64,000 nucleotides of DNA from Massilia timonae CCUG 45783 (GTDB lineage: Bacteria; Pseudomonadota; Gammaproteobacteria; Burkholderiales; Burkholderiaceae_D), in NCBI RefSeq assembly GCF_000315425.1, contig NZ_JH992923.1, positions 62,365-126,364 on the forward strand, given 5' to 3'. The notes under the pieces are model-generated. The model did not search any database. It was not told the origin of the DNA and saw only the letters and a list, made by a program, of their open reading frames with translations. The translations under genes were made by a program, and so were the position numbers. Positions 54,195-58,727 of this stretch are shown here, piece by piece. Position 1 is the first letter of the stretch. Every line of letters begins with the position of its first letter.

Positions 54195-55169
54195 TCAGGG
54201 CACGATGATCACCTTGCCGATGACCTTGCGCGCCGCCATGTCGTTCAAGGCCTGCGCGGTGTCGGCCAGCGCATAGCGCCGCGACACCAGCGGCCGCAGT
54301 TTCCCTTGCGCGATCCAGCCGGTGATGCGCGCCATCGCCGCCAGGTGCGCATCCTGCTCCTTGCGCGTGAAGTCGCCCCAGAACACGCCCACCACCGACG
54401 CCCCTTTCAGCAGCATCAGGTTCCACGGCAGGCGCGGGATCTCGCCGGCCGCGAAGCCCACCACCAGGTGGCGTCCGCGCCAGGCGATCGAGCGCAGCGC
54501 CGGTTCGCTGTACTTGCCGCCGACCGGATCGTAGATGACGTCCGGGCCGCGGCCATCGGTGGCGGCGCGCAGCGCTTCGCGCAAGTCCGCGGTTTCATAA
54601 TTGATCAGCACGTCGGCGCCGTGCACCTTGCACGCCGCCAGCTTCTCGTCGCTGGACGCGGCCGCGATCACGCGCGCGCCGAGGGCCTTGCCGATCTCGA
54701 TCGCCGCCAGGCCCACGCCGCCGGCCGCGCCCAGCACCAGCATCGTTTCGCCCGGCTGCAAGGCAGCGCGGTCGGCGACCGCGTGGTACGAGGTGCCGTA
54801 GGTGAGCGTGATCGCGGCGGCGACATCGAAGTCCATGTCGTCCGGCATCGGGAGGAAGGCGCTGCCCGGGGCCACGGCCTGCTCGGCGAAGGCGCCGGTG
54901 CGGGTGAAACCGATCACGCGCTGGCCGGGGACGAAGCCGCGGACGTCGGCCCCGACGGCGCGCACCACGCCCGCGAACTCGTTGCCCGGCGTGAAGGGAA
55001 GGGGAGGACGCACCTGGTATTTGCCCTGGACCGTCAGCACGTCGGGGAAGTTGACGCCGGCCGCCTTCACGTCCACCACGACGTCGCCCGGGCCGGCGAC
55101 CGGTTCCGGCAAGTCTTCCAGCACCAGGCTGTCTGGTGGTCCCCAAGCGGTGCAGCGTACGGCTTTCAT
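54195..55169 (-). CDS. Quinone oxidoreductase (zinc-independent MDR family)
   Basis: 324 residues. The N-terminal GroES-like domain has VKAAGVNFPDVLTVQGKYQ and PFTPGNEFAGVVRAVG; the NADPH-binding Rossmann domain has MLVLGAAGGVGLAAIEIGKALGA (AAGGVG). DVIYDPVGGKYSE is near residue 220. The zinc ligands of alcohol dehydrogenases are absent, which points to the quinone reductase / NADPH:quinone branch. Convergent with the helicase gene. Substrate unknown. Confidence 0.9.
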   Translation of the reverse strand: MKAVRCTAWGPPDSLVLEDLPEPVAGPGDVVVDVKAAGVNFPDVLTVQGKYQVRPPLPFTPGNEFAGVVRAVGADVRGFVPGQRVIGFTRTGAFAEQAVAPGSAFLPMPDDMDFDVAAAITLTYGTSYHAVADRAALQPGETMLVLGAAGGVGLAAIEIGKALGARVIAAASSDEKLAACKVHGADVLINYETADLREALRAATDGRGPDVIYDPVGGKYSEPALRSIAWRGRHLVVGFAAGEIPRLPWNLMLLKGASVVGVFWGDFTRKEQDAHLAAMARITGWIAQGKLRPLVSRRYALADTAQALNDMAARKVIGKVIIVP

Positions 55170-55346
55170 TGCTTCCTCACAGTTTTATTGGCGGGGTTAT
55201 TGGCGGGGCGAATTATGCCTTAAGAAAGAGAGCGAATCTTCGTCCGCAAGGCCCGTGTCTGCTTGTCCGCCCGCAAAGCCGGCAGGGGTCCGCGCGCTAG
55301 AGTCTTGGGATGCGGGCGCCACGCGCGCCGGGACCAGAGGACAAGC

Positions 55347-55955
55347 ATGGCAATTCGTTACGGTTGTTTCTTCAGTTATGCCCACGGCCGACACGCGCTG
55401 ATGCAGCGCTTCAAGTCGGCCCTGGCCGACGCCCTGCGCTGCTATCTCGAACCCTACTTCGACAACGAAGACGAACTGTTTGTCGATACCGAGCAGTTGG
55501 GCGGCGGCGACGATCTCGACCGCAAGATCGCACGCGCCATGTGCGAGAGCGTCTGCATGATCCTCATCTACACGCCCAAGTACGAGGCCCACGCCTATAC
55601 GCGGCGCGAGTACGAGGCCATGCGCCTGATCGAGGCCGAGCGCGGCAAGTGGTACACGCTGCCGAGCCGCCTGATCATCCCGGTCGTCATGACGCGCCAC
55701 CCCGAATCCCTGCCGCCCCAGATCAGCGACGCGCGCTTCTATGTCGACTTCTCGCACTACACGATGGCCACGCCCGATCTGATGTCGAATCCAGACTTCT
55801 TGCCGGACATTGACAAGATGGTCAAGCGGATTGCAGCCCATTATGCATGTCAAAAAAAGCATACGCCGCTCGACCACGACTGCAACCAATTCGTGCTTCC
55901 CGCTGTCCCACCCGAATGGCGCGATGTTCCAGAACTGACGTTTCCAAAAGAATGA
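55347..55955 (+). CDS. TIR-domain protein, first gene of a candidate two-gene system
   Basis: 202 residues from the ATG at 55347 (AGAGGA 6 bases before). The whole protein is a TIR-like fold: box 1 GCFFSYAHG (6-14), the BB-loop region FVDTEQLGGGDDLDRKIARAM, the third strand ESVCMILIYTPKYE, and YTRREYEAM, where Glu88 takes the place of the catalytic Glu of NADase TIR domains. LIIPVVMTRHPESLP and FYVDFSHYTM follow. No signal peptide or extra domain. The next gene begins 8 bases after the stop, so the two are cotranscribed. TIR proteins of this short kind partner FxsC/KGGVGR-type proteins in actinobacteria. NADase or signalling activity is an inference. Confidence 0.82.
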   Translation: MAIRYGCFFSYAHGRHALMQRFKSALADALRCYLEPYFDNEDELFVDTEQLGGGDDLDRKIARAMCESVCMILIYTPKYEAHAYTRREYEAMRLIEAERGKWYTLPSRLIIPVVMTRHPESLPPQISDARFYVDFSHYTMATPDLMSNPDFLPDIDKMVKRIAAHYACQKKHTPLDHDCNQFVLPAVPPEWRDVPELTFPKE

Positions 55956-55963
55956 GGAGCCAT

Positions 55964-58477
55964 ATGGACCAACAAGGTATCTCGCTCCAGCCGCTGGCCA
56001 CGCCAGGCGCGGTGACGAGCTTCTATGCCTACGAGGGCGGCGCGGCGCGCAATGCCGTGCTCGCGGCGCTGGCGCTGCAGCTGGCGGGTGGGGACGCCGA
56101 GGCGCCGGTGCTGGTGATCGACTGGGATCTCGAGGCGCCGGCACTGCATCGCCATTTCGCAGTGCCGGCCGATGAACCGTATGCCGACCTGCCTGTTTCC
56201 CTGCATGGCGCCGGGCCGGCGCCCGCGCACCCGGCGGCGCCTGCGGGCGCGCATGCCACCGACGCCGGCGACGCGGCCCGGCCCGGGCTGCTCGAATTCC
56301 TCGAGGCTTGCCGCGCCCGGCTGCGCAACACCGCCGGCCGCGGCGAGGAGCTGGCCGACCGCGTGATCGACGGCGTCGGCTGGCAGGCCTATCTCGAGCG
56401 CGCCGACGGCCGCCGTCCGCTCTACCTGCTGCGCGCCGGACGCTTCGACGGCAGCTATGCCGAACGCGCCGGCCGGCTCGACTACCCAGCCCTGTTCGAC
56501 GCCTGCCCGGCGCTGTTCCGCCGCTTCGCGGCGCGCCTGGCGCAGCATTTCGGCCACGTGCTGGTCGCCACCGCCGCCGGGCGCTCGGCCGCCGTCAGCG
56601 TGTGCTCGACCCTGGTGCCCGACCGCCTGGTGGGCCTGTTCACGCCGGCGCCGGGCAGCATCGAAGGCATCGAAGGCATGCTGCGGCGCGCCATCGATTA
56701 CCGCTGCACCCACGAAGAAGAACAGCGTCCGCTGCTGCTCTACCCGCTGGCCTGCACGGCCGACGGCGCGCGCAGCGACCCGCATGCGCGCTGGCGGCGC
56801 GGCGATGCGCGCCATGGCCCGGGTTACCAGCCGCGCATCGAGGCGCTGCTGCGCGCCAGCTATGGCTGGTCGCGCGTCAACCTCGACAGCTGGTTCGACG
56901 AGACCCAGCTGGCGCTGGCCGACGCCTTGTCCACCGCCGGCCCGGGCGGCGACCGCCGTGCGCTGGCGCGCCATGCCGCGCTGCTGGCCGAATGGCTGGC
57001 GCCGGGCCGCTTCCCCTGGCAGTCGCTGACCGAAGTGCGCCTGCGCGCGGCGGTCGCGCAGGCCCGCCGCCAGGCCGGCGGCGACGACATCGGCTCACCG
57101 TCGCTGGCCGATCACCTCGGCCGCTTGGGCGAGCTGTGCCGCCGTGAGCGGCGCCGCGACGAAGCCCGCGCCTGCCTCGAAGAAAGCCTGGCCGTGCGCG
57201 AACGCCTGCTTGGCGACGACCATGCGGCCACGCGCCAGGCCCGCGTCGCGCTGGCCGCGCTCCTGCTCGACAGCGGCGTCGTGCAAGAGGCGCGCCGCCA
57301 CTACGACCTGCTGGTCCAGGCCTGCGCGCGCACGGCCGGTCCTGATGCGCCCGAGACGCTGGCGGCGCGCTCGCAGCTGGCGCGGGCGCTGGCCGCGCTG
57401 GGCGAGGGCGAGCGCGCGCTGGCGCTGCACGAGCAGGTGGTGTCCACCTGCGAACGCGCGCTCGGCGCCGAACACCTGGTCACGCTCGACTGCCTCGAAG
57501 ACCTGGCGCATAGCCTGGTGCAGCAGCGCGAATTCGAACGCGCCCGCATCGTGGTCGAACGGGTGCTCGACGCCCGTCGCCGGCGCCAGGGCAGCGAGCA
57601 TGCCGACACCCTGCGTTGCGGCCAGCGGCTGGCGCTGCTGCTGGGCGAGACGGGCGAACTGGGCAACGCGCGGCGCATGCTCGAATCGGTGTTGCGGGCC
57701 CATGAACGTCACGACGGCCTGGACGCCGCCGGCACACTGTCGGCGCGCGAGGCGCTGGCCGAGATCCTGGCGGCGCAGGGCGACCTGGCGGCGGTGCGCA
57801 GCATCCAGGAATCGTTGGCGCGCACGCGCGAGCGGCACCTGGGAGCCGGCCATCCCGAAACGCTCAATATGCAGCTGCGGCTGGCCTCCACCCTGGGCCA
57901 GCAGGGCGAGGCCGAAGCCGCGCGCCGCCTGCGCGAACAGGTGGCCGAGCTGCGCCAGCACTTGCGCGAGGTCGAAGGCGCGCCGCCGTCCGGCGGCGCC
58001 CTGGACGATGCCGTGCAGGTGCAGCTGACACACCAGATGCGGGACCAGATGCGGGCGCACAGCGGGGCATCCGGCTCCAGCCTGTCGCCGGGCGGCGTGG
58101 CGCCCGGCCTGTCATCGTCGCCGCCTGCGGCGGACGGCGTTGCAGCGCACGGACAGCATGAACTTGCGGCGCCGCGCGAGCATGCCGAAACCAGTCATGC
58201 GGCCGACAACCTGGGCCACAAGCTTACCGAGTTGCAGAACCTGATCGACAGCCGCAGTCCTGAAGAAGCCAGGGCGCTGGCCGACAGCCTGCGCACCTCG
58301 GTGCTCAGGCCCAGCGCCGCCCATCCGCTGCGCCGGCGCGGCGCCGCCATGATCAAGCAGGTCTATCTGCAAGAGGGCGACAAGGATGCGCTGTTGTCCT
58401 TCACCCAGGACGAAGTGTCGCTGCTCGAAGGGGCCTTGATCGAGGCGGCGCGCGACAATCCGATGGCGATGCGCTGA
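55964..58477 (+). CDS. KGGVGR-type ATPase with lost catalytic motifs fused to TPRs (TIR partner)
   Basis: 837 residues, start ATG 55964 (GAGGAG 6 bases before). Residues 15-260 match the deviant-Walker ParA/MinD-like group with FYxYKGGVGRTMAL, but the loop reads FYAYEGGAARNAVL (20-33): Lys is Glu24, Gly is Ala28 and Thr is Asn30. Walker B VLVIDWDLEAPALHRHF (49-65) is kept. The later DSRTG motif reads ATAAGRS (202-208), while FTPAPGSIEGI is normal. About six kinesin-light-chain-like TPRs fill 381-662, then a Pro/Ser/Ala linker and a helical C-terminal domain (740-837). It looks like a nucleotide-binding fold that no longer hydrolyses ATP, acting as scaffold or sensor for the TIR protein. Confidence 0.78.
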   Translation: MDQQGISLQPLATPGAVTSFYAYEGGAARNAVLAALALQLAGGDAEAPVLVIDWDLEAPALHRHFAVPADEPYADLPVSLHGAGPAPAHPAAPAGAHATDAGDAARPGLLEFLEACRARLRNTAGRGEELADRVIDGVGWQAYLERADGRRPLYLLRAGRFDGSYAERAGRLDYPALFDACPALFRRFAARLAQHFGHVLVATAAGRSAAVSVCSTLVPDRLVGLFTPAPGSIEGIEGMLRRAIDYRCTHEEEQRPLLLYPLACTADGARSDPHARWRRGDARHGPGYQPRIEALLRASYGWSRVNLDSWFDETQLALADALSTAGPGGDRRALARHAALLAEWLAPGRFPWQSLTEVRLRAAVAQARRQAGGDDIGSPSLADHLGRLGELCRRERRRDEARACLEESLAVRERLLGDDHAATRQARVALAALLLDSGVVQEARRHYDLLVQACARTAGPDAPETLAARSQLARALAALGEGERALALHEQVVSTCERALGAEHLVTLDCLEDLAHSLVQQREFERARIVVERVLDARRRRQGSEHADTLRCGQRLALLLGETGELGNARRMLESVLRAHERHDGLDAAGTLSAREALAEILAAQGDLAAVRSIQESLARTRERHLGAGHPETLNMQLRLASTLGQQGEAEAARRLREQVAELRQHLREVEGAPPSGGALDDAVQVQLTHQMRDQMRAHSGASGSSLSPGGVAPGLSSSPPAADGVAAHGQHELAAPREHAETSHAADNLGHKLTELQNLIDSRSPEEARALADSLRTSVLRPSAAHPLRRRGAAMIKQVYLQEGDKDALLSFTQDEVSLLEGALIEAARDNPMAMR

Positions 58478-58538
58478 CAGCGCGGGGCGGGCGCTGCGCC
58501 AGCCTCGACCCCCGGCATGGTCCGGGCAAGTGCTTGCG

Positions 58539-58594
58539 CCGGCGCCCGTATGCCGGCGCTCGTATGCCGGTGCCCGTATGCCGGCGCCCGTATG
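58539..58594. repeat. Four tandem copies of a 14-bp unit
   Basis: CCGGCGCCCGTATG is repeated four times (58539, 58553, 58567 and 58581), with single changes in copies 2 and 3. The array lies 61 bases after the stop of the TPR gene. It is not in a supported gene. Confidence 0.85.
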
Positions 58595-58647
58595 CCCGGA
58601 TCGCCGGGCGCCGAGCCGCCGACCGGCCCCGCTTGCCCGCAGACCAT

Positions 58648-58727
58648 CAGTCCGCCAGTCCGCCAGTCCGCCAGTCCACCAGTCCACCAGTCCACCAGTC
58701 CACCAGTCCACCAGTCCACCAGTCCAA
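58648..58727. repeat. Ten tandem copies of an 8-bp unit
   Basis: CAGTCCGC three times (58648-58671), CAGTCCAC six times (58672-58719) and a final CAGTCCAA (58720-58727). The two forms are grouped, not mixed, which suggests recent expansion by slippage. Units of 8 bp in direct contact without spacers are unlike CRISPR. Not in a supported gene. Confidence 0.88.

Follow-up and report, generated by a model that had tools for sequence, protein, structure and literature searches.

A TIR gene and a putative pseudo-ATPase gene form a conserved chromosomal two-gene unit in Massilia-type bacteria

Bacterial TIR enzymes are mostly treated as mobile defence effectors of patchy occurrence, and immunity is where enzymes of this kind are best known. 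The window analysed here, a stretch of 64,000 nucleotides from Massilia timonae CCUG 45783, holds a TIR gene directly followed by a gene for an ATPase-like protein with degenerate motifs, which raises the question what such a partner does beside a TIR protein. The two genes are a real pair, a small unit of conserved neighbours in Massilia-type bacteria. Both lie, like all features given below, on the forward strand: the TIR gene (P0001, 202 aa) at 55347..55955 and the partner gene (P0002, 837 aa) at 55964..58477, 8 bp apart as described in the initial annotation. Each ATG is preceded by a purine-rich sequence resembling a ribosome binding site, AGAGGA at 55336..55341 and GAGGAG at 55954..55959, the latter overlapping the TIR stop codon. 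Upstream, the loci share a ATTATGCC element that probably goes with the divergent oxidoreductase gene. The window is close to Massilia arenae.

The TIR fold of the first product is backed by both a Pfam profile and a structure model. The protein matched PF13676 (TIR_2) with 42.8 bits (8.9e-11; gathering cut-off 28), and the best PDB matches of its AlphaFold model (pLDDT 88.8) were TIR domains, in agreement with the fold originally proposed. The glutamate singled out as candidate catalytic residue is indeed residue 88 (codon at 55608..55610); it stands at the expected catalytic place, is invariant in 75/75 relatives and pairs, in profile alignments, with glutamates of TcpB and of the flax L6 TIR domain, which we take to be the catalytic ones of these proteins. 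The product of gene 1 is probably an NAD-cleaving TIR enzyme.

The gene order dinG–TIR–partner–surE–pcm–nlpD–rpoS marks a single chromosomal site in almost every locus examined, with surE downstream in 63/63 and dinG upstream in 70/71 loci. Co-occurrence among relatives, which the initial annotation had suggested surveying, proved to be strong: the partner adjoins the TIR gene in each of the 78 named loci, out of 80, with enough sequence around it, and the TIR gene is present in 55 of 58 loci of the genus. Of the remaining three, two are contig-end pieces and the third is a remnant. The spacing of 8 bp recurs in 39/55. Between dinG and surE, both genes are absent in four genus genomes, and a fifth lacks the TIR gene and most of the partner gene; the pair is mostly kept or lost as one. 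Dependence of the TIR protein on its partner is not absolute, because a single genome, L127, has an apparently intact TIR gene and no partner. Its C-terminal tail (residues 173-202 in the window, 55863..55952) is changed at 14/29 places compared to 25/172 in the body, a contrast that comes from this one partner-less genome and a boundary picked after inspection, and that makes the tail a candidate docking element. The whole L127 protein is not clearly faster-evolving, with 83.9% identity to L124 compared to 81.9% and 79.6% for the partner-bearing L125 and L126; the tail alone stands out.

Searches at higher rank returned few relatives. Among 300 genomes of the order, the TIR protein gave four matches (1e-15), all in its own genus (1/134 genera), in a sample thin enough that four other genera with known matches gave none in it. 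Among 369 genomes of the class, the partner gave six matches (1e-30), of which only the one in its own genome covered the whole model and the other five covered the TPR part. In flanks of up to about 1.5 kb around nine KGGVGR proteins over the cut-off (8/229 class genomes), reading the start of each frame by eye revealed no TIR-like neighbour.

Known defence effectors include TIR NADases, and the pair could be an anti-phage abortive-infection unit in which the partner senses infection and frees the TIR NADase, whereupon the cell dies. Weak PADLOC matches of the TIR protein to Aga_TIR-PNTD1-PNTD2 (2.9e-4), PDC-S66 (0.0014) and ThsB (0.046) and of the partner to PDC-M28B (3.2e-5) point in this direction, as does a KGGTGRS protein on a cyanobacterial plasmid that carries EAD10 and NPHP3_N-type domains. 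However, the pair occupies a single chromosomal place in nearly all loci, tblastn with the TIR protein of the relative L124 gave no match in 72,556 plasmid records, and the TIR protein is slow for an arms-race gene: its median identity to the window (78.0%) comes near that of SurE (81.9%) and of rpoS (81.0%), although the same cannot be said of the partner (47.4%). The dN/dS of the TIR gene was 0.05-0.11 in 10 window-clade pairs. We consider abortive infection rather improbable. A mobile defence island cassette, for which variable place, patchy spread and plasmid or phage copies would be expected, was rejected on account of the synteny with surE and dinG and the missing plasmid match for the L124 TIR protein.

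The core-genome neighbours surE, pcm, nlpD and rpoS could also indicate a physiological signalling pair acting in stress, stationary phase or cell-cell communication, with the TIR protein as nucleotide-signal maker or adaptor. In PMC5080296, the core-genome TIR protein Jab_2c19720 of Janthinobacterium sp. HH01, a putative counterpart of the window TIR gene, appears in the list of quorum-sensing (jqsA) dependent genes with a log-fold change of -2.29. Co-regulation does not follow from neighbourhood alone, however; the JAI-1 motif (PMC5080296) was found within 350 bp upstream in just 3 of 101 loci, compared to 0.43% of random 350-bp stretches, and the four genus genomes without either gene also argue against such a role, which appears doubtful to us.

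The partner (AlphaFold model pLDDT 84.8) begins with a degenerate KGGVGR-type MinD/ParA-like domain (residues about 17-245, 56012..56698), which matched AAA_KGGVGR (NF047398) over residues 17-242 with 2.7e-14 and 54 bits, under the cut-off of 90; two intact relatives reached 122.1 bits, and the degenerate proteins of G001 and G029 scored 92.5 and 92.3 bits in a genome search. There follow a kinesin-light-chain-like TPR array (residues about 361-690, 57044..58033; Pfam TPR_12, 4.9e-30, and TPR_10), with the TPRs of KLC1/KLC2 as best Foldseek matches, and a C-terminal region of four predicted helices (residues 739-831, 58178..58456). TPR proteins head the 50 Foldseek matches listed for the model, which include no confirming structure match for the N-terminal domain. 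Parts of the presumed scaffold seem to be dispensable, because the partner of one Massilia clade is devoid of TPRs (by alignment, and by Pfam on one member) and the C-terminal region (residues 736-837), matched in 60/98 relatives, has no match in the other 38 rows, some of which are ended by contig ends. The initial annotation had likened the pair to a split TIR-STAND immune or signalling unit. This architecture was rejected: a Pfam scan of the window partner up to an E-value of 1 revealed no NB-ARC, NACHT, AP-ATPase or STAND domain, and the TPR-less clade and the single chromosomal place also speak against it.

The EGGAARN loop, the ATAAGRS motif and FTP..SIEG all read as originally reported, but the statement that Walker B is intact was wrong, because two ParA-type proteins encoded in this genome, when aligned with the partner, put the lost DSRTG motif itself at Walker B. 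The retained VLVIDWDLEAP, which had been taken for Walker B, contains the Walker A' (DxD) box (LVIDWDLEAP, residues 50-59, 56111..56140) with Asp53 and Asp55. Gone from the window partner are the Lys, Gly and Thr of Walker A (EGGAARN, residues 24-30, 56033..56053; Arg29 retained) and the Asp of Walker B (VLVATAAG, residues 199-206, 56558..56581; Ala at 202).

We compared these residues in 98 partner rows, 97 of which reach the Walker A loop. The loop is degenerate in 67/97, all of which lack the Lys. On the Massilia side, this Lys is gone in 63/63 rows reaching the loop, whereas on the Duganella side, next to the same TIR gene, KGGxGRT is retained together with the Walker B Asp in 30/34 rows; K-G-T-D at residues 24/28/30/202 occurs in 30 rows, every one Duganella-side. 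The co-occurrence with TIR genes holds also for the intact loops of these sister genera, whereas the initial annotation had named intact loops in close relatives combined with a lack of TIR co-occurrence as evidence against its reading. Asp202 is gone in 15/98 rows including that of the window: Asn30 occurs in 14 rows, and Ala202 in the same 14 and in L131, in the window's subclade. The change count of three may here be two, as L131, the N-terminus of which is absent, was counted with the rows that have no Asn at residue 30. Most degenerate forms still have Ser30 and Asp202. Since the motif losses recur in many genomes, a sequencing error, already discounted in the initial annotation, is very unlikely. 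Its two independent losses in one protein are real as losses, but they are not peculiar to one genome, and sequential decay fits them better than independence. The loss looks stepwise, with the intact form as the presumed ancestral one, as judged from intact distant relatives and not from a rooted tree.

Gene 2 might merely be decaying, as could be read from partner genes that are broken, split or cut short in several loci (L006/L131, L009, L038 and the G040 remnant) and from residues 1-72, which are under weaker constraint in the window clade than in six intact Duganella pairs. However, dN/dS of the degenerate ATPase parts was 0.09-0.47 in 10 window-clade pairs and 0.05-0.24 in two other degenerate clades, that of the C-terminal region in the window clade was 0.00-0.18, and most loci still have long open frames, which makes mere decay very unlikely. 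These ratios, together with the motif pattern, suggest that the partner is likely a pseudo-ATPase kept under purifying selection, as first proposed. A degenerate domain might still bind and sense a nucleotide or another phosphate ligand without hydrolysing it: Arg29 (97/97), Asp53 (98/98) and Asp55 (95/98) outlast the other motif residues, and Ser30 and Asp202 persist in most degenerate forms. Yet both expected Mg2+ ligands are gone in the window's subclade, and we regard such sensing as an unlikely explanation.

With moderate confidence, we propose that the pair is a vertically inherited two-gene unit of Massilia and Duganella, in which a core-genome TIR effector is held by a scaffold turned pseudo-ATPase. 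The product of gene 2 would be a dedicated scaffold and restraint of the TIR enzyme, forming a complex with it until some trigger acts. Ancestrally, the MinD/ParA-like domain probably worked as an ATP-driven switch that timed the assembly of TIR proteins. Residues expected to be required for hydrolysis would have been lost along the Massilia stem (Lys24 to Glu/Asp; Gly28 mostly to Ala/Val), leaving at most nucleotide binding, and in the window's subclade the additional loss of the two expected Mg2+ residues (Thr/Ser30 and Asp202) would have resulted in a nucleotide-independent pseudo-ATPase. The TIR protein may dock on the partner via its conserved C-terminal tail, and the TPRs, where present, may add input. 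A bolder version, which we put forward only tentatively, is that the ATP-driven switch was replaced stepwise by a nucleotide-independent scaffold, perhaps with a pocket of Arg29 and DxD sensing another ligand such as a TIR product, in a core-genome TIR signalling unit the main role of which is not mobile anti-phage defence.

The TIR gene of this unit is a syntenic core gene, with a conservation near that of its housekeeping neighbours, and the partner exists at the same place with an intact, a half-decayed and a more fully decayed ATPase. The orthologous pairs of Duganella and Massilia form a natural series in which the contribution of a nucleotide switch to TIR control is directly testable, and which is useful for studying how such switches change.

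Among known systems, SPARTA TIR-APAZ, SARM1 and AbTir share the TIR fold and are among the best PDB matches of the TIR model; the window protein differs in being stand-alone, with 202 aa and a predicted activity. Thoeris ThsB shares the TIR domain, but the likeness to the PADLOC model ends at the match of 0.046 given above, and ThcB4 scored 17.7 bits against a cut-off of 220. FxSxx-COOH systems likewise combine a TIR-like protein (FxsC, NF040588) with a TPR protein (FxSxx_TPR, NF040586), and the pair could be a member of such a peptide-maturation system. Its scores remained under the cut-offs for both FxsC_Nterm (37.9/130 bits) and FxSxx_TPR (112/300 bits), the latter match being strongest in the TPR part. 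FxsB over the cut-off was found in 0/62 genus genomes (below it in 60/62, and likewise in 11/14 control genomes), and the peptide model in 0/62, although control genomes also gave none. Membership, which we hold to be extremely unlikely, was rejected on the sub-threshold scores and the lack of FxsB over the cut-off. According to the survey PMC7159879, inactive MinD/ParA-like domains have been noted for VMAP and for actinobacterial FxSxx-linked systems, in the latter within an AP-ATPase, a domain that the Pfam scan did not reveal in the window partner. PMC8195603 was set aside, its link to Massilia being no more than the species name Gemmata massiliana. With the KGGVGR AAA ATPases (NF047398), the partner shares domain homology over residues 17-242 and differs by its lost Walker A and Walker B residues. 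An intact relative of the partner matched 11 plasmid records, five of which were inspected. On plasmid pSchITTGS70c of Sinorhizobium chiapasense, a TIR reading frame, annotated as a shorter hypothetical protein, stands immediately before the KGGVGR protein WP_331375610, as in the window; this pair differs in being plasmid-borne, in its intact KGGVGRS and in that WP_331375610 itself has a TIR domain and no Pfam TPR. The surveyed inactive domains and this intact pair narrow the initial claim that a proteobacterial TIR gene paired with a dead KGGVGR ATPase is undescribed.

The initial annotation had described a TIR gene (55347-55955, forward strand, 202 aa) followed after 8 bp by a partner gene (55964-58477, forward strand, 837 aa) with an EGGAARN loop and a later ATAAGRS motif, and the locations, the gap and both sequences were confirmed. 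In the first protein, Pfam detected a TIR_2 domain (8.9e-11), and the structure predicted from 58 sequences (pLDDT 88.8) had the TIR domains of SPARTA, SARM1 and AbTir as its best PDB matches, so that a TIR fold is well predicted. Glu88, proposed earlier as the catalytic residue, was invariant in 75/75 relatives and aligned with Glu residues of TcpB and flax L6, which we take to be the catalytic ones; on these grounds it stays a candidate. In the partner, Pfam found TPRs and NCBIfam a KGGVGR domain at 2.7e-14, but with 54 bits versus a curated cut-off of 90; the assignment to the KGGVGR group thus holds for the presence of the domain and falls short of the score needed for membership. Kinesin-light-chain TPRs headed the 50 Foldseek matches listed for the partner model (pLDDT 84.8; low-confidence stretches at ~69-99 and 674-742), so that support for the N-terminal domain comes from sequence profiles alone. 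The genome contained a single partner match and a single TIR_2 match. For this pair, the NCBIfam models FxsC and FxSxx_TPR scored far under their cut-offs, and the PADLOC models gave weak matches and nothing stronger.

In MinD/ParA-like ATPases, Mg2+ is held by the Walker B Asp and by the Thr/Ser that follows the loop Lys/Arg, and the first Lys of the loop takes part in hydrolysis. In an alignment of the partner to two ParA-type proteins encoded in the same genome, its loop (residues 24-30) paired with their KGGVGK[TS], its VIDWDLEAP with their VDLDPQ/LDADIY, and their ILVDCPPA/LIVDMPPG with VLVDSRTG of intact relatives and VLVATAAG (199-206) of the window protein. According to this alignment, the box that is kept is Walker A' and the missing one is Walker B, which had previously been called intact. 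With Walker A degenerate and the Walker B Asp lost in the window, the proposal of a pseudo-ATPase comes out sharper, and the partner is probably one.

Among 98 aligned partner sequences, some of them identical to one another across genome sets, the loop read KGGxGRT in 30, was degenerate in 67 and was absent together with the N-terminus in one. All 30 intact sequences belonged to the Duganella side of the tree, and the loop was degenerate in 63/63 Massilia-side sequences reaching it and in four on the Duganella side. These four show separate losses of the P-loop Lys (REAASRT in L189, RDASSRT in L193, RNDGSRS in L122 and QDGCGRS in L120) and retain the Walker B Asp. By parsimony on a tree of the TIR protein and partner residues 1-360 minus the motif columns, built by a quick method without bootstrap, Lys24 changes three times and Asp202 twice, one of the latter changes depending on L184, a metagenome-bin sequence with a long branch. 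Fourteen sequences have both Asn30 and Ala202, and L131, the N-terminus of which is missing, has Ala202 as well; Arg29 (97/97), Asp53 (98/98) and Asp55 (95/98) are retained. A divergent member of the genus outside this set (L050) combines the loop EGGAARS with an Asp still at the Walker B place. Two intact relatives reached 122.1 bits with the KGGVGR model. Taken together, the motif losses look like decay in steps. Since the loop is also intact in a protein from a Sinorhizobium plasmid and in a second KGGVGR protein of a same-genus genome, the intact state appears to be ancestral, as the sequences suggest for a tree without outgroup rooting.

dN/dS ratios (NG86) in the window clade, from ten pairs among five genomes, were 0.05-0.11 for the TIR gene and, for the partner, 0.11-0.47 (residues 1-72), 0.09-0.28 (108-245), 0.10-0.43 (246-360), 0.20-0.35 (TPRs), 0.45-1.31 (linker 691-735) and 0.00-0.18 (C-terminal region). 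Partner residues 1-72 gave 0.08-0.18 and 0.07-0.17 in two other degenerate Massilia clades (six pairs each) and 0.03-0.09 in six intact Duganella pairs; a further intact pair (L123-L126) had 0.14 for this segment, 0.19 for TIR and 0.60 for the TPRs. By these values, in no set does the degenerate domain appear to evolve neutrally, and only in the window clade is its constraint clearly weaker than that of the intact domain.

Partner matches were found in 57/62 genomes of the genus. The TIR gene was present in 55/58 loci taken from them, with a gap of 8 bp in 39/55; two of the three loci lacking it start at contig ends (L055, L058), and the third (L056) is a remnant in genome G040, where TIR is gone and TPRs of the partner remain. 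In four of the five partner-negative genomes (G008, G009, G014, G039), dinG and surE flank an interval that contains neither gene; the fifth (G049) has a surE match interrupted by a contig end. In G288, from another genus, TIR is retained and the partner absent. At 1e-20, TIR matches occurred in 72/245 sampled family genomes and 5/44 genera. Outside the family, the pair had no match among 300 sampled genomes of the order searched with TIR, a thin sample since four of the five positive genera went undetected in it, and none among 369 sampled class genomes searched with the partner. A scan of named GTDB contigs yielded 143 stretches encoding a relative; among the best 80 of these, the records that carry a genus name are Massilia, Telluria, Duganella, Rugamonas, Pseudoduganella and, in one record, Herbaspirillum. 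In these 80, the partner directly follows TIR in 78/78 loci reaching far enough, surE lies downstream in 63/63 and dinG upstream in 70/71, the exception (L133) having no dinG match within reach. The survey for co-occurrence proposed in the initial annotation thus came out positive; the pair is real and conserved, and apparently vertically inherited. Median identities to the window over single-piece matches aligned over 80%, for which the locus sets differ between genes, were 78.0% for TIR (80 loci), 81.9% for surE (71), 82.6% for dinG (73), 81.0% for rpoS (43), 72.5% for the quinone oxidoreductase (57), 70.6% for pcm (67), 63.0% for nlpD (64) and 47.4% for the partner (26).

The partner-surE interval contains tandem repeats of 14-bp GCCGGCGCCCGTAT (58538-58596, 4.2 copies) and 8-bp CAGTCCAC (58640-58726, 10.9 copies). 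Upstream of TIR (55147-55346) lies a ATTATGCC element, and a AGTACGACCGTTTGATTTTT stretch is found there too in many relatives; these may serve the divergent quinone oxidoreductase gene as promoter and operator. Closer to the TIR start, many relatives also share a TAGAGT stretch.

One locus examined (L127) has TIR without a partner. Compared with the TIR protein of L124, its residues 173-201 differ at 14/29 positions and the remainder at 25/172 (Fisher p = 1.2e-4, for a tail boundary set after viewing the sequences and a contrast from one genome); in five partner-bearing relatives the tail differs at 0-6/29. This suggests the TIR tail as a candidate docking element. TPRs are absent in 7/18 aligned partner sequences of the genus, in one of which Pfam found none, and the C-terminal region is present in 60/98. 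What stays constant is the TIR protein together with the ATPase-like domain, degenerate or intact, and the region behind this domain.

A Sinorhizobium chiapasense plasmid (L229, 568-6199) carries a KGGVGRS-TIR fusion gene with a TIR reading frame directly ahead and a further large reading frame upstream with a weak, sub-threshold patatin match. On a Pseudanabaena plasmid (L231, 1396-6490), EAD10 and NPHP3_N-type domains are fused to a KGGTGRS domain, with a caspase-family gene nearby. In other genomes of the class (L220, L221, L222, L227), KGGVGR proteins over the cut-off overlap or directly adjoin a downstream reading frame that has its own P-loop-like start (GGRGVGKS, GMRGAGKS, GIRGAGKS), which is a recurrent pair different from the TIR-partner pair.

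The function of the pair is one we infer, and its earlier interpretation as a split TIR-STAND immune unit was not supported. In a largely open-access body of literature on TIR, KGGVGR, FxSxx and Massilia/Duganella, the pair was not recognisable among the matches listed, and the available parts of a paper describing effector-associated domains (PMC8195603) hold no mention of it. In Janthinobacterium sp. HH01, a core-genome TIR protein is listed among quorum-sensing-dependent genes with a JAI-1 motif (PMC5080296); it is a possible counterpart, and the motif stood upstream in only 3/101 of our loci. Inactive MinD/ParA-like domains have been reported (PMC7159879) from VMAP systems and from an AP-ATPase of actinobacterial FxSxx-linked systems.
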